From positions 1-33,176 of the forward strand of contig CALDFV010000210.1 in NCBI GenBank assembly GCA_937942145.1: a stretch of 33,176 nucleotides of DNA, written 5' to 3'. Below, piece after piece: positions 8,656-32,670 of the stretch. Each line of letters begins with the position of its first letter. The stretch's first letter is position 1. A program made the position numbers and the translations under genes. Source of the DNA: an uncultured Opitutaceae bacterium (GTDB taxonomy: Bacteria > Verrucomicrobiota > Verrucomicrobiia > Opitutales > Opitutaceae). The notes beneath the pieces were generated by a model. That model saw nothing but the letters and a program-made list of their open reading frames with translations. It searched no databases and was not told where the DNA came from.

Positions 8656-8721
8656 AAGAGCTCTCGTTCAAGGCAGGGCTGCCGATAAGCTAAGTGGCTA
8701 AACTCATTATTGCTGCGTGCT

Positions 8722-11700
8722 ATGAATCCCACTGGCTTGTTCAAAGACATATTCCTCAAATCTCCCCATGCTCAGATTATTTCGAGTAATGGTCTCATCC
8801 AGATGGCGAATCGAGCGGCAGTAGAGCTATTGGTTCGCAGTTCAGATGTTCATTCTCTCACGGACACTCCGATGGAGGCCTACTTCAAAAATTGGGAGAA
8901 AGCGCTTCAGGAAAACGAAGGTTCCGCTTCGTTGACCTTGGCCTCGCCGACCGAAAAAGGCCCGCATGCGTGTGAAGCCATTGCGACGAAGATGGGAGAA
9001 GGGGAAGTTTTGTGGAATCTGCGTCCGATTGGATCTGGAATTGAATCAAGCGGCGCTGACCGGGAGTCGGCTCTTAAGGTGGCTCTTGATCGATCGACAG
9101 ACGGAATCGTCTGCTTATCGCAAGACCTATCTAGTGAAGATCAGGCATCAAATTGGCTTGTCCGTTTCGCTAATCGCGCTTCCCGCGAGCTTATTGGAAT
9201 CGAACGCTCAAATATTGTGGGCAGAGCATTAAGGGAAGTGTCTTCAGTTTACGACGTTCTCAAAATTGACGAGCTCATCTCGAATATTCAGAATACTCAC
9301 AAGCCGGCAAGTGAAGAGCTCGCATTTGAGGTACAAGGCGAGTTGAAAACGGTTGTTCTTTCGGCCCAGAAAACGGATCGTTCGGAGTACATTTTAGTTG
9401 TAGAAGACGTTACCAAGGCACGGCAGGTCGAGCAGGAGCTGGAAAGCAGTTCCAATGAGTTGGAGCGTTTGAGTGACCAAGTGCCTGGGGTCTACTTTCA
9501 TTTGAAGATTAACCAAGATGGTGATCCGTCCTTCCCGTTTATCAGCGAGAAGATTAAAGACCTTCTCGGAGTCGAAGCGCAAGATGTAATGAAGGATGCC
9601 TCTATCGCCATGGGGGCCGTATTCATCGAGGACTTGGAGCGGGTATATGAAAGCTTGGCAGTATCTTCGAAGAATCTTAATCCGCTCTATTTAGAATATC
9701 GAGTTAACGGTCCTAACGGAAAACAGAAATGGGTATCAACTAAAGCGATACCGGAAAAGCGTAGTGACGAGACGATTATATGGTACGGAATTTTTGAGGA
9801 CGTTACCTTGAGGAAAGAATCCGAAGAACGCCTTAGAATGGTATCTGCTGCCGTTGACGTCTCTAGCGACTTCATCCTGATGATGTCGACCGAAGGAAAC
9901 GGCATCTACCATAACAACTCCTTCACCAGCGTTCTCGGATATGACTCAGTCGACCAGTTGAACAATTCCGGTGGAGCAGTGGCTCTATTTGAAGATCAAG
10001 GCCTATTTGAGAAAATCCTCCAAGAGACTCAGGAATATGGTCACTGGCAGGGAGATGTGCAGATGGCTACGGAGTCAAGTCGAGTGCTTGATGTCTACTT
10101 TAGAACAGTTGCCGTGCGCGATGACAAAGGGCGGATTACCGCAATCGTTGCCACTGGTACTGACGTCACTCACAACAAACGGCGCCAGAATCTGTTGAAG
10201 CGATACAACTCCGTATTGAAAGCGCAATCCGAGGCATCGACCGATGGAATTCTGGTAGTAAACGAACGAGGTATCGTATCGAACTACAACAAGCGTTTTC
10301 ACGAAATCTGGTCGCTTTCTCCAAGTGTTATGGACGCGGGAGACCCTGCGAAAATCTGGGAGACCGCATCGGAACTGATGCCTGAACCTCAAGCGTTCTT
10401 GGATAAGGCGAATTCAATTTCTGCGAGTGAAACCGAGACAGTAAAAGATCTGCTCGAGTTGAACGACGGAAGAATTTTTGAGCAAGCTTCCTTCCCGATA
10501 TGCTCACCTTTAGGTGAATCGTATGGAAGGGTTTGGTTCTTTCATGAGATAACGGAGCAGAAGCGTTCTGAAGAGCAGCTAAGAGCCGCAATGCGGCAGG
10601 CAGAAGAGGCGAACGAGGCTAAGAGTTATTTTCTCGCTAACATGAGCCATGAAATTCGGACTCCGATGAATGGCATCATCGGTATGACCGGCTTGGTAAG
10701 CGATACGGACCTTGATCGCGAGCAGCGTGAATGCGTGGATACAATCCGTGCCAGTAGCGAGGCGTTGCTTGTCGTTATAAATGACATTCTAGACTTTTCG
10801 AAGATCGAATCCGGAAAACTCGAGATCGAGAGTACCCTCTTTGACCTTCGCGATTGTGTAGAGGAGGCAGTTGATACTCTCGCCTTACAGGCGACCGAAA
10901 AAGGTTTGGACATCGCATATGTGATCGACAAGTCGATGGAAACTACGCTGCTCGGAGACCCTACGCGTTTACGTCAAGTTGTGATGAACCTGATTGGCAA
11001 TGCGGTGAAGTTTACCGGGAAAGGGGGCGTTTGTGTTCGAGTTTCCCTTGTGGAGGAGAGCGATGATCGTTTGAAGGCCCAGTTCTCAATACGTGATACG
11101 GGAATTGGTATTCCTGCGGATCGAGTAGATACACTCTTCGATTCGTTTAGTCAGGTGGATGCCTCAACTACGAGAAAGTATGGTGGCACCGGTCTTGGTT
11201 TGTCGATCAGCAAGAACCTGGCCGAGTTGATGGGTGGATCTATGTGGGTGGAGAGCGCGATAGAGGAAGGGTCGACGTTCCACTTTACGGTTGAGTTCCG
11301 CAAATCTGCTATTGAATCGCTTCCTGCAGGAACGAAGACTGTGGGCGAATTTGAGGGAAAGAATGCTTTGATTGTTGAGCACAACGCATTCAGCCGAGAG
11401 TCCTTGAGGAGCCAGGTTGAACACCTTGGCCTAGAATCGATTGGTCTGGAGTCGTTGGCTGATCTTGAGAATCTTGAAGTTGAGTCTTCGAATCTGCTTC
11501 TGGCTTATGTGGAATCGGGTATCGATGGATTAGATACGAATGAATTAGTTGAAAGCGTTCGAAAAGGCTCAGGGAATTCGAATTTGCCCGTAGTGATATG
11601 CGGTCCATTGGGGAGTCTTCATGCTGGCAGCGGTGTGTCTGGCAAGGTGTTGTCTCAATTAAAGCCTTGTAAGCTTGCGAATACGAAACGCAATCTCATG

Positions 11701-12171
11701 GAATCCGTAGGGTTAGCGGAGGAGACGGTAAAAAAGACTGAAAAAACTTCCGATAAACTAGGAGAGAGAATGCCGATGTCTATCTTGCTGGCTGAGGATA
11801 ATATCGTAAACCAGAAGGTTGCCACTAGGTTGTTTAAGAAATTTGGTTACAAGATTGAAGTGGCGAATAACGGCCTTGAAGCGATAAAGGCTCTTCAGCA
11901 GAGTTCTTATGACCTTGTATTCATGGATATTCAGATGCCGGAAATGGACGGTCTTGAAGCTACGAGGCAAATAATCGCCAAGTGGGGTGATGCGAGACCG
12001 AGAATTGTTGCGCTGACCGCAAACGCTATGCGAGAAGATAAAGAGAAGTGCTACGAAGCTGGGATGGACGACTACCTGACCAAGCCGTTTAAGCCCATTG
12101 AGCTAGAAGAAGCGATTGAGAGTACTTACGAGCGTCTAGAATCAAAGGGCGGGTCAACTCCAGCCTCTTAA
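8722..12171 (+). CDS. Hybrid sensor histidine kinase with about five PAS domains and two receiver modules
   Basis: This large soluble kinase (1149 residues from ATG 8722; 1153 if the TTG at 8710 is used) has about five PAS-like domains across residues 10-620. Several end in the typical (D/E)(V/I)T motif (VVEDVT, IFEDVT, GTDVT, FHEIT). HisKA follows with the phospho-acceptor His643 in FLANMSHEIRTPMNG, then HATPase_c (NLIGNAVKF, DTGIGIP, GGTGLGLSI). Next is a receiver-like segment (KNALIVEHNAFSRESL) without a phospho-acceptor aspartate. Last is a canonical receiver with LAEDN, Asp1069 in FMDIQMPEMDG, and the TKP lysine. No membrane helices are seen, so it senses in the cytoplasm. There is no adjacent output regulator, so phosphate may pass to a remote Hpt protein. 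Confidence 0.93.
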   Translation: MNPTGLFKDIFLKSPHAQIISSNGLIQMANRAAVELLVRSSDVHSLTDTPMEAYFKNWEKALQENEGSASLTLASPTEKGPHACEAIATKMGEGEVLWNLRPIGSGIESSGADRESALKVALDRSTDGIVCLSQDLSSEDQASNWLVRFANRASRELIGIERSNIVGRALREVSSVYDVLKIDELISNIQNTHKPASEELAFEVQGELKTVVLSAQKTDRSEYILVVEDVTKARQVEQELESSSNELERLSDQVPGVYFHLKINQDGDPSFPFISEKIKDLLGVEAQDVMKDASIAMGAVFIEDLERVYESLAVSSKNLNPLYLEYRVNGPNGKQKWVSTKAIPEKRSDETIIWYGIFEDVTLRKESEERLRMVSAAVDVSSDFILMMSTEGNGIYHNNSFTSVLGYDSVDQLNNSGGAVALFEDQGLFEKILQETQEYGHWQGDVQMATESSRVLDVYFRTVAVRDDKGRITAIVATGTDVTHNKRRQNLLKRYNSVLKAQSEASTDGILVVNERGIVSNYNKRFHEIWSLSPSVMDAGDPAKIWETASELMPEPQAFLDKANSISASETETVKDLLELNDGRIFEQASFPICSPLGESYGRVWFFHEITEQKRSEEQLRAAMRQAEEANEAKSYFLANMSHEIRTPMNGIIGMTGLVSDTDLDREQRECVDTIRASSEALLVVINDILDFSKIESGKLEIESTLFDLRDCVEEAVDTLALQATEKGLDIAYVIDKSMETTLLGDPTRLRQVVMNLIGNAVKFTGKGGVCVRVSLVEESDDRLKAQFSIRDTGIGIPADRVDTLFDSFSQVDASTTRKYGGTGLGLSISKNLAELMGGSMWVESAIEEGSTFHFTVEFRKSAIESLPAGTKTVGEFEGKNALIVEHNAFSRESLRSQVEHLGLESIGLESLADLENLEVESSNLLLAYVESGIDGLDTNELVESVRKGSGNSNLPVVICGPLGSLHAGSGVSGKVLSQLKPCKLANTKRNLMESVGLAEETVKKTEKTSDKLGERMPMSILLAEDNIVNQKVATRLFKKFGYKIEVANNGLEAIKALQQSSYDLVFMDIQMPEMDGLEATRQIIAKWGDARPRIVALTANAMREDKEKCYEAGMDDYLTKPFKPIELEEAIESTYERLESKGGSTPAS

Positions 12172-14292: not shown

Positions 14293-15483
14293 TCAGTCCA
14301 GTTCCTTGACGTATTCGATTGGTAGTTGAGCCTTCTCGGCAACCTCAGGAATCAGCTCATCCCCGCAGTAGAAAGGAATCTCGTTTTTAACATGAGCGGC
14401 GCAGTTGGCGAAATGCAATAGGGTAACGTAGCAAAACTCATTTGAAGCAAAAGCTGCGGGTTCATGATGCCATGTTGTGGCTCTAACGATATTTTCTGGG
14501 AGTCCCCACATTGCGAAGAGGAAACCTCCGATGGCAGCATGGTCGCAACCGAAGATGGCTTGCTCCAAATGCCACAATGGCCGGTTGTTCTCGATGGATC
14601 TCCCCATTAGGTCAGCATATTCTTCTTGTTTGTTTGCCAAGAGAACTAATTTTCCAAGGTCATGGAGAAGAGTGATACTGGAAAGCGCTTGAGTCTGCTT
14701 CACGTTCACCCCGAACTTTCGCATCTGCAATCCGCAGTGACTGGTCTCGATGCAATGCTTCAACACCGCGTTGGCGATCTCTTGTAGCCCAGGAGAAAGA
14801 CTAAGCTGCTTTTTCGCCAACTCAGTAATTGCGAGATTACGAACGAAGTCCATGCCCAGCATCTGGAGGGCTTCCTCAATGGTTTCCACTCGGCCACCAG
14901 CTCCGAGAAAAGCGGTGTTGGCAACTTGAAGAATAGTAGCAACTGCTGTCGGATGCTGCCGTATCACAGGAGCGAAATCATCGATTCCACAATTGGGATC
15001 ATCGGAGGTTTTAAGAAGCTGCTGCATTGGCTCCGTGTTGACGTGGAGCTGTTTTGTGTCCCGAACGATTTCAACAACCTCTTTGCGTCGAATTCTCAAC
15101 TGAGTGTTTAAGACATGCTTGATCTCGGTTACGAGGTCCTCTGGTGAGATGGGTCTCTCGATATAGAGGTGGGCCAGACCAGTCCCTTTCTTTAACGAGT
15201 CTTTGTCAGACTGGTCGTGAATTAGAAACCTAAGCGAATTTGGGTATTCCCGTTTAACGTTTGATAGAAGTATGTCGCCAGAGGTCTTGGGAAGGTCTAG
15301 GCTGGTGAGTACGATATCCGCTTGATCCGCAGCTAGGGAAGCGGCTGCTTCTTCTCCATCCTGTAGGATACGCAGTTGCCATCCTTCCTGGATGATCGAT
15401 GGAGCGTTGCTAATCGAATCGAGGAAAGAAGGGTCTTTATCAGCAATCAGTATCTTGATTGCTCGCTTTGCCTTCGAACTCAT
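14293..15483 (-). CDS. HDOD-domain signalling protein with degenerate receiver domain
   Basis: Residues about 9-125 fold like a response-regulator receiver (IKILIADKDPSFLDSI), but the phospho-acceptor position in VLTSLDLP is Ser61 rather than Asp. The conserved lysine of KP is arginine (IERP). Phosphorylation therefore looks unlikely. Residues about 150-345 are an HDOD domain (AVATILQVANTAFLG, ALQMLGMDFVRNLAI, LLHDLGKLVLL). HDOD proteins are non-catalytic or poorly defined HD-like regulators, often tied to motility, type IV pili, c-di-GMP or stress responses. The 396-residue protein ends 9 bp from the convergent glycosyltransferase. A second receiver-HDOD protein lies at 19463. Confidence 0.9.
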   Translation of the reverse strand: MSSKAKRAIKILIADKDPSFLDSISNAPSIIQEGWQLRILQDGEEAAASLAADQADIVLTSLDLPKTSGDILLSNVKREYPNSLRFLIHDQSDKDSLKKGTGLAHLYIERPISPEDLVTEIKHVLNTQLRIRRKEVVEIVRDTKQLHVNTEPMQQLLKTSDDPNCGIDDFAPVIRQHPTAVATILQVANTAFLGAGGRVETIEEALQMLGMDFVRNLAITELAKKQLSLSPGLQEIANAVLKHCIETSHCGLQMRKFGVNVKQTQALSSITLLHDLGKLVLLANKQEEYADLMGRSIENNRPLWHLEQAIFGCDHAAIGGFLFAMWGLPENIVRATTWHHEPAAFASNEFCYVTLLHFANCAAHVKNEIPFYCGDELIPEVAEKAQLPIEYVKELD

Positions 15484-19462: not shown

Positions 19463-21256
19463 TTATTTTACCGAGTAGGATTTTCGTATCCCTTCGTATT
19501 GGACGATCACGTTTTTCTGATCGATACCCACGACGCGAGCCCCTGAGACTCTGTCCCCTATTCTCACCAGCTTGCTGTTGATATTGGCTACGGGAATGGG
19601 AAGGTCGTGATAAATTTTTGTTATGTTGATCTTTGGGAACTTGGTCGGCTCCTGAGAGAGGTCGAAGCTTTCTGCGACAAGTTCTTCAGCCGTAACAGTA
19701 GTGAAATACGTGTTGGACGCTTGAGCAACAAGTTCTTGGGCGGTAATCGCTTTATCATCGACTGAGTTTTCATCACTAATTCTCAAGTATGCCCCCTCAT
19801 TGATTTGCGATGTGAGGGAACCTTGCTCCCAATCGTCAATTGTCTCGGAACTTGTATTTTTGGTAACGATAAAGCCCGCGAATAGGATGCAGGCGATAGC
19901 ACAAACTCCTACGACCAATTGATTTTGAGTGATTCGTGGTTTACTGATTTTTTGTTCGTTCGGGCAATCGGTTGGGCTTTCGAAATTTGCCACATCAGAA
20001 TCCCAATTGTTTTGTGGCTGCTCAAGATCGGACCCTAATTCTCTCGTTGAAACGTTCGATTCATCGCTAAAGTTACCCGAAACCAGCCTATTCCATTTGG
20101 GCCATTGGTCTGCTTTCCCCAATTCAGAAATGAAAGGACACTCGTATCCGGAACCTGGGGGCGTATGTTTCTGAGATAAGATTCGATTGGCGACGTAGAC
20201 GGAAGCCAGTGCGGAGAACGATGAACCGGAGGAATTCACCGGCTCATGGTGGAATACTGCAGACTCGACTGCTTCGATTGGGAGTCCCCAGCGAGCGAGC
20301 AGGTAGGCTCCGGTCTCGGCGTGATTACAGCCTAGAATTCCGTTTTCGGCTTCCCATGCTGGGATTTTCTTTAATTCGGCGAACTCTTGCGCGGACTTGT
20401 AGGCATCAGGTGCCGCTCTTTGCATAATTAGTTTCCCGATGTCGTGAAAGAGTCCGGATGTATATGCCCCTTCTGCAAGTTTAGAAGTACCGGTTTCGTA
20501 CATCATAAGGTTTTTAGCGCCTACAGCGACGCTCATGCTGTGATGCCATAGTTGGTCGGTCTGAATCTTTTGTTCTCCTCCCTGGGTGTCACTAAATACC
20601 TGGATTGCGAGCACTAGGTTCTTGACCGTTTCGATACCGAGGACACTGACGGCTTGGGTAATGTCAGAAATGGTTTCATCGAAGCCGAAGAAGGAGGAAT
20701 TAACGATTTTTAGAATCTTAGCGCTGACCGTTATGTCATTGGAGATCGCTTTGCCAACTTTCTCGATGGATACATCGTCGTCGTTCAGCGTATCGACGAT
20801 TTTGATATAGAGAGAGGGTAAGCTAGGTAGTTCGCCTAGTGTGCTGACGATGCTCTTGATTTGGGGTTTTCCAAGCCAGGCCTCGATTGAGAGACACCTC
20901 TGAATTTTGGTGAGGAGTCGATTGGCAGGACATGGCTTCGGCAGAAAATGGAAGGAGCTCCCGATTCCGTCTTCCAGAACTCCGATCTCGTCCCGATTTG
21001 CGACTATGAATCGGTGAATAAACGGATGGGCTTTTTCGGCTTTGCGCAGGAGCTCTGCACCATTCATTTGCGGCATATGGTAGTCGCAGATTACGATTGA
21101 AGGGGGGTTACTGATAATCGACTCGAGGGCCTGTTGCGGATTATTGGAATACTCGAGAATCCACTGGTCTCCTTTCGAAGACAGGGAAGCCTTTATTTGG
21201 TCGAGGCAATCGATCTCGTCATCGATTACCAGAATGCGTGTGTTATTATTGGCCAT
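19463..21256 (-). CDS. Membrane-anchored receiver-HDOD protein with secretion-protein-like tail
   Basis: From the ATG at 21256 (MANNNTRILVIDDE) it has 597 residues; the track's GTG at 21313 adds 19. The receiver domain (about 1-125) is intact at key sites: VIDDE, Asp in ICDYHMP, and Lys in LPKP. HDOD follows (about 150-345), with TVSAKILKIVNSSFFGF, AVSVLGIETVKNLVLAI, FHDIGKLIM and HHEP. After a polar linker comes one transmembrane helix (QLVVGVCAIACILFAGFIV). An exported part ends KLVRIGDRVSGARVVGIDQKNVIV, which resembles the small beta domain of GspB/PulC-type secretion proteins. The layout suggests a phosphorylation-controlled signal linked to an envelope machine such as type II secretion or type IV pili. 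That link is inference. Confidence 0.85.
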   Translation of the reverse strand: MANNNTRILVIDDEIDCLDQIKASLSSKGDQWILEYSNNPQQALESIISNPPSIVICDYHMPQMNGAELLRKAEKAHPFIHRFIVANRDEIGVLEDGIGSSFHFLPKPCPANRLLTKIQRCLSIEAWLGKPQIKSIVSTLGELPSLPSLYIKIVDTLNDDDVSIEKVGKAISNDITVSAKILKIVNSSFFGFDETISDITQAVSVLGIETVKNLVLAIQVFSDTQGGEQKIQTDQLWHHSMSVAVGAKNLMMYETGTSKLAEGAYTSGLFHDIGKLIMQRAAPDAYKSAQEFAELKKIPAWEAENGILGCNHAETGAYLLARWGLPIEAVESAVFHHEPVNSSGSSFSALASVYVANRILSQKHTPPGSGYECPFISELGKADQWPKWNRLVSGNFSDESNVSTRELGSDLEQPQNNWDSDVANFESPTDCPNEQKISKPRITQNQLVVGVCAIACILFAGFIVTKNTSSETIDDWEQGSLTSQINEGAYLRISDENSVDDKAITAQELVAQASNTYFTTVTAEELVAESFDLSQEPTKFPKINITKIYHDLPIPVANINSKLVRIGDRVSGARVVGIDQKNVIVQYEGIRKSYSVK

Positions 21257-25607: not shown

Positions 25608-25991
25608 TTACTGTTTCTGACCTTCGGCGGAGTACGTACGAGTCGTCGGATTGGCCTGAGGATGTCCAACCGAAAATGTGCCATCAGAAGTGACCGAACC
25701 TGATACGGTATATCCCTTTCCGATTTGCTTAACGTAGGAGAGAAGGTGACCGGTGATGGAACCAGAAGTCGCTGCGTAAGAAATCGTGGCAGACGTTGTG
25801 TTATTCTCGAGCATGTACTGTTGTGCAGCAGATGCGATTTGGCGTGCGTCATTGTCCATTGCGCTAGCACGTGAGCTTTCGCGAACCTTTTGGAACGCAG
25901 GTATCGCCATAGCAGCCAAGAGGCCTATGATAACGACAACGATCATGATTTCGACGAGGGTAAAACCCTTCTTAGATGTATTTTTATGCAT
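25608..25991 (-). CDS. Type IV pilin / type II secretion pseudopilin
   Basis: The 127-residue prepilin has the class III signal KKG^FTLVEIMIVVVIIGLLAAMAIPAF: short basic leader, cleavage after Gly9, and glutamate at mature position 5. A hydrophobic helix forms the filament core. The C-terminal part is small (about 85 residues), rich in Ser, Thr and Gly, and cysteine-free, so without the usual disulfide loop. It could be a major pseudopilin or a minor pilin. TAGGAAT precedes the ATG by about 10 nt. A strong terminator and an isolated position imply a single-gene transcript, so the assembly machinery must be elsewhere. Confidence 0.9.
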   Translation of the reverse strand: MHKNTSKKGFTLVEIMIVVVIIGLLAAMAIPAFQKVRESSRASAMDNDARQIASAAQQYMLENNTTSATISYAATSGSITGHLLSYVKQIGKGYTVSGSVTSDGTFSVGHPQANPTTRTYSAEGQKQ

Positions 25992-29680: not shown

Positions 29681-30847
29681 ATGGCACGACCGATCACCCT
29701 AAAACCCGTAAAGCGAGGTTCTTCCTGGGATGTAAGTCTTCCTCCGTCGTTAAGCCCGACTGGCAAGCGTAAGCGTAAATCCTTCCAGACAAAGGTGGAG
29801 GCGGACAAGTACAGCCAACAGCAACTACAGCAGTTCAGGAATGAGGGGCCGCATACTATTCGCTTCACTTCCAAGGAGGCTGTTGACGCCCGTGATGCGA
29901 TGAGAATATTGGACGAAGCAACGAAAGAGCTGACGGGCGTCGACAGGATAAGCCTCGCCAATGCAGCAAAGCATTTCGTCAATTTCTTGAAGGAAAGGCA
30001 GGCGGCCAAAACCTTCATCGAGGTTTGGGAGGCATCTCTTGAGTCCAGAGGTTTCGACACGTTTTCAATCAGACATAAAAATGATGTTCGTGGATTGAGC
30101 AGAAAATTCCTAGAGGTCTTTGGCAAATCTCTGATTCCCGACATCAGTCCCGATCAAATCGAGAGATTTCTGAACCGCACGTTCACACATAAGACTCAAT
30201 TCAATAAAGCCTACAGGGTGATTCACCCAGCATTTGTTTATGCAGTAAAAAGGGGTTACTTATCGGCGGACCCATTCGTAGGAATAAGCCAGAAGAAGGT
30301 TGCCAAGGGTAAGGTAAGCGTCGTCAGCATAGAGCAAGCGGAGAGGATCGCCAGTCTCTGTAGAGGCGACTTCGCCGACTGTATGCCTGCGATCATGATA
30401 ATGATGTTCGCAGGCGTGAGGCCGCTAGAGTGCGAGAGACTGGAATGGAGTGCCATCAAATTTGATTTGGATGAACCATGCATAAGAGTAACCAAAGAGG
30501 TTGCCAAAGGATCGTTAGAAACTGCCCGACCAAGAACCATTCCAATGGAAAACAACCTCATTTCGTGGCTGAATTTGATCCCGAAAGAGAAGAGGGAAGG
30601 TAAGGTTATCCCTCCCAATTGGACAAAGAGAAACACAGCCTTCAGGGCCGCTATTGGTTTTTCTGGGACTCAAGACCAAGACATCCTGCGGCACTCTTTT
30701 GCAAGCTACCATCTAGCCTACTATAACGACGAGAACAGTACTACAGCTTCACTGGGACATGGCTCCTCCAAGATGCTTTTCAAGCACTACGACGCAGCGG
30801 TTGAGCGAAAGCCAGCGCTGCGATTCTGGGGACTGTTTCCTGATTGA
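29681..30847 (+). CDS. Tyrosine recombinase/integrase
   Basis: The 388-residue enzyme would integrate and excise the element at the adjacent tRNA-Leu gene. Residues 1-55 form a basic, probably DNA-binding start, about 90-205 the SAM-like core-binding domain, and about 215-385 the catalytic domain. Catalytic candidates are Arg247 (AGVRPLE), Lys272, Arg337 (DILRHSFAS), His360 (LGHGSSK) and the nucleophile Tyr370 (KHYDAAV). The first histidine of the HxxR box is Asp334 here; substitutions at this place are tolerated in some integrases. The ATG has no ribosome binding site but directly follows a good promoter-like sequence. It points away from the tRNA. Confidence 0.92.
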   Translation: MARPITLKPVKRGSSWDVSLPPSLSPTGKRKRKSFQTKVEADKYSQQQLQQFRNEGPHTIRFTSKEAVDARDAMRILDEATKELTGVDRISLANAAKHFVNFLKERQAAKTFIEVWEASLESRGFDTFSIRHKNDVRGLSRKFLEVFGKSLIPDISPDQIERFLNRTFTHKTQFNKAYRVIHPAFVYAVKRGYLSADPFVGISQKKVAKGKVSVVSIEQAERIASLCRGDFADCMPAIMIMMFAGVRPLECERLEWSAIKFDLDEPCIRVTKEVAKGSLETARPRTIPMENNLISWLNLIPKEKREGKVIPPNWTKRNTAFRAAIGFSGTQDQDILRHSFASYHLAYYNDENSTTASLGHGSSKMLFKHYDAAVERKPALRFWGLFPD

Positions 30848-31599: not shown

Positions 31600-32670
31600 A
31601 TGTATAAACAAAAACACAAAGAAGCCCCTGCGATAACAGGGGCTACGAAAAACGAATACCGAGGTATCCTTAGTAAAGTAAGTACCAACGGTAACAATAG
31701 ATCAGCCCAGCGCAAGACTGAAATTCTGGAGGACTTCAAAAGCTCACCAGCAATACATGGCCAGCGCTGGTCAGACGCCCGGGAGTGGGCCGTTAAGCTA
31801 TATTGCGGAACGGACTTAAATCCGGATGAGATAGAGGAGCTACTGATCGAACACTACGGCCATGAAATGGCCAGGGAAATGCGGGGTCTTGTCAAAGATC
31901 TCCCCAATAAGTTCGAGAAACGTGACTATAGAGAGATGCGGCCGACTCGGGTTACTCCGATTTGCCCGAAGACGAAGCCGAAACTGATTGATCTTGGAAA
32001 CCTATTCCCGGATTCGGTTTCGGTTCCGGAGTCGGCGTTTTTAGAGAAGTCGGATTTCGAGCTAAACTGCGGCAGGGAGGACGCTCGATTACTGCTTTCT
32101 TGCTGCTTCAGGGAAGGAGATCTCATTGCTATCAAGACTAGCCACAAAAGTCCCTCTTTCGTGAAGTCGAGAGAGGAGTGGCTGGAGTATCTAATCGAAA
32201 ACCCAGTTCTCCAATCCGAAGAAGGTTCCTGGGTGTATGCGAATCCGATCAGTCCAGAAGTTCTTTATCGGCTTCCCAAGGACCGGCATATCAAAGCCTC
32301 TGACGTCCTAAAGCACAGGTTTATTGTCTTGGAGAATGACAACGTCAGCCTGCAAACTCAACTAAGCTTCGCTGGATATGTCCTCCCTTATCTTCAGGCG
32401 ATCGTCTTCTCAGGACGTAAGAGCTATCACTGTTGGCTAAGAGTTGATGCTGAGACGCCGGAGGACTATCGCAAGGCAGCGTCTAACATAAAATCGCTCG
32501 TTGGGGCTGGGTGCAGCAGATTCGGGAACTCCGGATATGATGTCTGCACTATTTGCTCGACTGCCCATCCACGTATGTGTGGGGCCGCGAGGGGTCTAGA
32601 GGAGCAGAGGCTTATCTTCTTGAGGAGTTCTCCAACTCCGGAACCCGTTTTTAGGAAGGAGGTGGCCTGA
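31600..32670 (+). CDS. Primase-like (PrimPol-related) replication protein of the element
   Basis: The 356-residue protein has an N-terminal helical part (WSDAREWAVKLY) and a C-terminal half resembling primase-like proteins encoded beside DUF3987 genes. HRFIVLENDNVSLQTQL would supply acidic residues. IVFSGRKSYHCWLRVDA matches the SGGKSxHxW histidine motif, and HPRMCGAARGLEEQRLIFL matches the usual RxPGxxR..Q.LLYL end. It probably primes element replication. The ATG at 31600 lacks a ribosome binding site and is followed within 8 codons by a terminator-like hairpin. No other ATG, GTG or TTG in frame occurs for about 90 codons, so the true start is uncertain. Its stop overlaps the next start. Confidence 0.6.
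   Translation: MYKQKHKEAPAITGATKNEYRGILSKVSTNGNNRSAQRKTEILEDFKSSPAIHGQRWSDAREWAVKLYCGTDLNPDEIEELLIEHYGHEMAREMRGLVKDLPNKFEKRDYREMRPTRVTPICPKTKPKLIDLGNLFPDSVSVPESAFLEKSDFELNCGREDARLLLSCCFREGDLIAIKTSHKSPSFVKSREEWLEYLIENPVLQSEEGSWVYANPISPEVLYRLPKDRHIKASDVLKHRFIVLENDNVSLQTQLSFAGYVLPYLQAIVFSGRKSYHCWLRVDAETPEDYRKAASNIKSLVGAGCSRFGNSGYDVCTICSTAHPRMCGAARGLEEQRLIFLRSSPTPEPVFRKEVA
31623..31644. terminator. Terminator-like hairpin within the first codons of the primase-like gene
   Basis: AGCCCCTG and CAGGGGCT form a perfect 8-bp stem around CGATAA. It is flanked by A-rich sequence on the left and GAAAAAC on the right, so on the minus strand it looks like a terminator (T run after the stem). On the plus strand it could slow initiation or attenuate. 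Its place inside a predicted reading frame is odd. Confidence 0.5.

Follow-up and report, generated by a model that had tools for sequence, protein, structure and literature searches.

The secretin is anchored to the inner membrane by GspB, and the HR domain of Dickeya OutB binds the N0 domain of OutD, as found by pulldown, NMR, and cross-linking; the HR domains of GspC and PilP have also been reported to bind secretin N0 domains (PMC9239104). HDOD domains are HD-GYP-like and lack the phosphodiesterase activity of HD-GYP. The HDOD protein SadB has been reported to bind c-di-GMP, and Xanthomonas HDOD proteins influence attachment and flagellar genes; the mechanistic role of HDOD has not been established (PMC6543031), and its exact role is described as unknown (PMC4395418). 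A literature search found no protein that combines HDOD with a secretion component. Here, we describe a protein whose domain combination is new and whose parts are of known kinds.

The gene is located in a window (the whole stretch of DNA analyzed) of 33,176 nucleotides from an uncultured Opitutaceae bacterium. Computational analysis resolved its 597-residue product into a receiver domain, an HDOD domain, one membrane helix, and an HR-fold domain:

19463..21256, minus strand: whole gene of the receiver-HDOD-TM-HR protein (ATG start; 597 aa plus stop)
20900..21235, minus strand: receiver domain, residues 8-119 (Pfam PF00072, E 1.7e-11)
20240..20830, minus strand: HDOD domain, residues 143-339 (Pfam PF08668, E 5.3e-54)
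19919..20167, minus strand: variable cytoplasmic linker, about residues 364-446 (poorly conserved and modeled with low confidence)
19862..19918, minus strand: transmembrane helix, residues 447-465 (predicted N-in/C-out)
19643..19861, minus strand: variable acidic periplasmic linker, residues 466-538 (from alignment, conservation, and model)
19466..19639, minus strand: C-terminal HR/T2SSB-like six-stranded beta domain, residues 540-597 (from Pfam T2SSB and fold search)

A GTG codon 57 bases upstream is an unlikely start, because the orthologues in the family alignment begin at about the same Met as the 597-residue protein. The full-length structure model recovered these parts; its confidence is low between residues 397 and 537, a stretch that includes the membrane helix, and pLDDT is below 50 from residue 397 on in the cytoplasmic linker.

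The receiver scored 44.7 bits against a Pfam cut-off of 30.2 and the HDOD domain 183.1 bits against 22.9, so that with both domains above their cut-offs the protein is a receiver-HDOD response regulator. As read from the family alignment, the window receiver retains the residues of a phosphorylatable receiver, namely the acidic pair D12/D13, the phospho-acceptor D58, and K107, with Val85 at the switch Thr/Ser position, and the HDOD residues H239, H271-D272, H312, and H336-H337 are invariant across the family. The same alignment shows that D13, D58 (the phospho-Asp), and K107 are missing from the receiver of one relative, G310, making it an aspartate-less receiver, a type that is enriched on HDOD domains (PMC4395418). 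Phosphorylation is therefore not required in all members.

Residues 447-465 (LVVGVCAIACILFAGFIVT) form one strong hydrophobic segment with a Kyte-Doolittle 19-mer mean of 2.76, a value reached in 2 of 2000 shuffles of the protein. A single helix was predicted at the same position in all seven intact members of the family, the weakest being that of G302 (segment score 1.8). Such a segment was found in none of the HDOD relatives at other loci in a small check that is indicative only, as some rows were in the wrong frame. Across the family, the N side of the helix is basic and the C side acidic, indicating an N-in/C-out orientation by the positive-inside rule, with the receiver and HDOD domains predicted to be cytoplasmic and the tail periplasmic. 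The sequence-only reading of this DNA had described a receiver-HDOD protein anchored by a true transmembrane helix, which the two domain matches and the recurring hydrophobic segment bear out.

The same reading had likened the C-terminal tail to small domains of secretion proteins. With the T2SSB profile (Pfam PF16537; curated cut-off 28.4 bits), residues 548-590 were matched at 16.5 bits in the whole protein and at 21.7 bits in the tail alone (E 1.6e-4), both below the cut-off; when the family tails were scanned singly, all seven gave a match (best E 2e-6). CdsD_C, the C-terminus of the type III inner-ring protein, was also matched by four of the seven. Searched against the PDB, the tail as a single sequence gave nothing useful and a first seven-row tail profile gave a chance match only. 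A ten-row profile returned four matches in all, including GspC 2lnv (E 0.3) and GspB 4wfw (E 1.2), both weak. The AlphaFold2 model of the tail has six strands, and most of its final 50 residues have a pLDDT of about 95. When this model was searched with Foldseek against 350,542 PDB chains, the top five matches were 3oss (GspC from the GspC-GspD complex), 4wfw (GspB), 6hcg (PulC HR), and 2y4y and 2lc4 (PilP), with probabilities of 0.97-1.00 and a sharp drop thereafter. The E-values of 0.02-0.4 were modest because the domain is small (58 residues); despite this, we take the five-fold agreement on the modeled fold to be specific. The likeness proposed earlier was thus upheld, with a relationship of the tail to the GspB/PulC/PilP HR domain supported by sequence profile and clearly by predicted fold. 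The tail carries the motif IGDRVSGARVVGIDQKNVIV, and its identity exceeds that of its linker in both pairs compared (85% against 36% in one, 69% against 36% in the other).

Six further intact proteins with the identical order of parts were found in G009, G006, G022, G310, G302, and a MAG carrying locus L101, and the members with known affiliation are Opitutaceae or Opitutales MAGs. The window comes from a draft assembly of 320 contigs, which could favor the explanation that the fusion is an artefact, two genes having been joined by assembly error or read-through. This was refuted by the independent genomes with the same fusion and order, one of which (G302) has the gene at a different genomic place, and we give it practically no weight. 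When a full-length profile was run against 388 genomes across the phylum, end-to-end matches were confined to the window's own family, and the other matches reached about position 400, covering the receiver and HDOD domains. The nearest relatives elsewhere in the phylum end after HDOD, indicating a lineage-specific fusion within Opitutaceae. From these alignments, we infer that the membrane/HR module was added to a cytoplasmic receiver-HDOD protein within the Opitutaceae lineage.

Other proteins with comparable C-termini were also observed. Loci L093, L096, and L097 (G322, G276, and G331, from other genera of Opitutaceae) encode proline-rich single-helix proteins of about 250-450 aa that are GspB-like in layout and carry a similar C-terminal domain (SGVFQGTPPRAFINGRLVRLGEVV). 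An FHA-domain protein at L050 in an order relative (G036) resembles the type III inner-ring SctD/CdsD, and its C-terminus is T2SSB-like. In G004, a related tail lies at a contig edge among different neighbors, its cytoplasmic part being beyond the visible sequence.

The gene is broken or absent in sister genomes, indicating that it is optional and dispensable. The copy in G010 (L042:9150-10936), a genome 96.3% identical to the window over 19 kb, has four frameshifting single-base deletions; its neighbors are open, and over the 19 kb there are only two other coding-region indels, both upstream of one neighbor's likely start. G007 lacks the N-terminal half of the gene, and the loss extends through the adjoining genes as far as the pilin, which is also missing. 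Of the HR end, 39 residues survive in G001 and 36 in G008, and no trace of the gene was found in G002 and G005. In G003, an ORF of 152 residues covers just the helix and the tail and may be a remnant; it was rejected as proof of an independent function, since the remnants in congeners show frequent decay of the locus. Decay on this scale, with the coding parts of the G010 neighbors nearly free of indels, would suit a gene that is a relic, that is, a fusion once useful, now dispensable in the genus, and without an important role in the window's organism. We consider this very unlikely, as the frame of the window copy is open throughout and, between species, the receiver, HDOD, and HR domains are conserved, unlike the two linkers and the helix sequence, which drift (dN/dS was unobtainable for most domains because synonymous sites were saturated).

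The neighbors of the gene in the window are housekeeping or unrelated genes: a thioredoxin-like gene on the opposite strand at a distance of 15 bases, and genes for a SpoU-type methyltransferase, a DinB-like polymerase, a CoaBC-like protein, and two methyltransferases, some of them named from sequence by eye. The order thioredoxin-like gene, receiver-HDOD-HR gene, methyltransferase is kept in G009, G006, G022, and G310. Apart from a lone pilin-like gene (25608..25991, minus strand), no T2SS or pilus machine genes adjoin the gene in the window. The pilin-like gene has an N-terminal methylation motif, stands without pilus machine genes alongside, and is present at the same locus in G009, G010, G310, and G018. 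A hybrid histidine kinase (8710..12171, plus strand), which contains several PAS domains and ends in a receiver, is a candidate kinase for the nearby receivers, and at L101 the end of a relative of this kinase lies near the receiver-HDOD-HR gene. A second receiver-HDOD gene (14293..15483, minus strand), whose receiver apparently has Ser in place of the phospho-Asp and is without the conserved Lys, is conserved near the receiver-HDOD-HR gene in several relatives, L101 included. A weak phage-integrase match (29681..30847, plus strand) is followed by an ORF without any Pfam family (31600..32670), possibly marking an integrated element. No tRNA was found in the window, and promoter and terminator scans stayed at chance level.

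Three secretin systems were found in the genome, their component names being assigned by eye apart from the secretins and the ATPase:

Contig C100: T2SS cluster, GspD to GspG with E and F, on a separate contig from the receiver-HDOD-HR gene
Contig C47: pilMNOPQ-type cluster, in which a small protein of its own occupies the PilP position
Contig C240: third secretin with T4P-like neighbors

No second GspB-like protein was found by the T2SSB profile in this genome, which is 88% complete. G010 and G001 keep GspD and an open PilQ although the gene is broken or lost there, indicating that no secretin depends on the gene. In-frame stops in PilQ of both G010 and G007 had suggested joint decay with the gene; G010 was discounted, since its PilQ stop lies three codons from the end and its other pil genes are open. 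GspD is kept and the intact gene missing in G005 and G008, where no T4P secretin was found (G008 is 85% complete), and in G007, where both T4P secretins and pilM/N are broken. Co-loss with the T4P secretins is therefore a weak clue to the partner, countered by G001, G002, and G010, in which the T4P secretins are kept and the intact gene is missing. The single-contig genome G007 has broken pilM, pilN, and pilQ, a fragmented third secretin, and an intact GspD (L108; G007:C1:4096154-4101424), which reads as pili decaying and the T2SS being kept.

We propose that a receiver-HDOD regulator has been fused to a GspB-like module consisting of the membrane helix, a flexible periplasmic linker, and the C-terminal HR domain, and that the HR domain would dock on the N0 domain of one of the three secretins, in the manner of its counterparts in GspB, GspC, and PilP. 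This is the best explanation for the protein, and we regard it as probable. With docking, the phosphorylatable receiver and the HDOD domain would sit at the cytoplasmic base of a machine for either type IV pili or type II secretion. The main rival to docking is that the HR-like domain acts as an envelope anchor or sensor, binding a non-secretin partner (peptidoglycan-associated or otherwise periplasmic) and giving a second input beside the receiver. Such a role would fit the similar small domains in Opitutales proteins of other architecture, the CdsD_C matches, and a gene that has no conserved link to a secretin cluster; however, the five nearest solved folds are all secretin-associated HR domains, including a GspC crystallised with its secretin, and we consider the anchor or sensor unlikely.

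For the docking that we prefer, we infer secretin binding, phosphorylation, a role of HDOD at the machine, and a signal running from cytoplasm to machine or in the reverse direction. By analogy with the HR domains above, it is plausible that a phospho-relay signals directly to a secretion or pilus machine. We tentatively suggest as a possibility that the protein is a two-component output protein docked on the secretin, in which HDOD serves as a phosphorylation-controlled switch within the inner-membrane/periplasmic scaffold of T4P or T2SS. If this is true, a kinase could act directly on the machine, bypassing both transcription and free second messengers. The fusion also names a physical place where the receiver-HDOD unit may act and yields a small, testable binding prediction.

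GspB/OutB (4wfw) and the window protein share, by prediction, a single membrane segment, a variable periplasmic linker, and a C-terminal periplasmic HR fold, and the tail likely works like the HR part of GspB. In contrast to GspB/OutB, the cytoplasmic part of the window protein is a receiver-HDOD unit, no gspA or gspS context was seen for its gene, the T2SS cluster is on another contig, and the T2SSB score is under the cut-off for both the tail and the whole protein. Because of this score and gene context, we did not file the protein as GspB. It also belongs to Verrucomicrobiota, whereas the GspB survey covered gamma- and betaproteobacteria (PMC9239104).

GspC/PulC (3oss, 6hcg, and 2lnv) and PilP (2y4y and 2lc4) have the tail fold in common with the window protein, whose gene, unlike theirs, lies outside any gsp or pil operon. 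To our knowledge, GspC and the lipoprotein PilP have no cytoplasmic signaling domains. An identity as GspC/PulC was rejected, as the protein ends at the HR domain with no PDZ/coiled-coil after it and its gene is not in a gsp operon; PilP was rejected as well, as the sole helix is internal, after HDOD, and the pilMNOPQ-type cluster has its own protein in the PilP place. Cytoplasmic receiver-HDOD regulators have the same order of receiver and HDOD (3hc1, 3m1t, and 3ljx are solved HDOD proteins for comparison), and the nearest relatives in the phylum can be aligned with the window protein from residue 1 to about residue 400; unlike the window protein, these relatives end after HDOD, and those checked had no membrane helix. 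The GspBs of Alteromonas, which bear an extra cytoplasmic DUF3391 domain (PMC9239104), provide a precedent for a GspB with an added cytoplasmic domain; in Alteromonas this domain is DUF3391 and a gspA partner is present, whereas in the window protein it is the receiver-HDOD unit.
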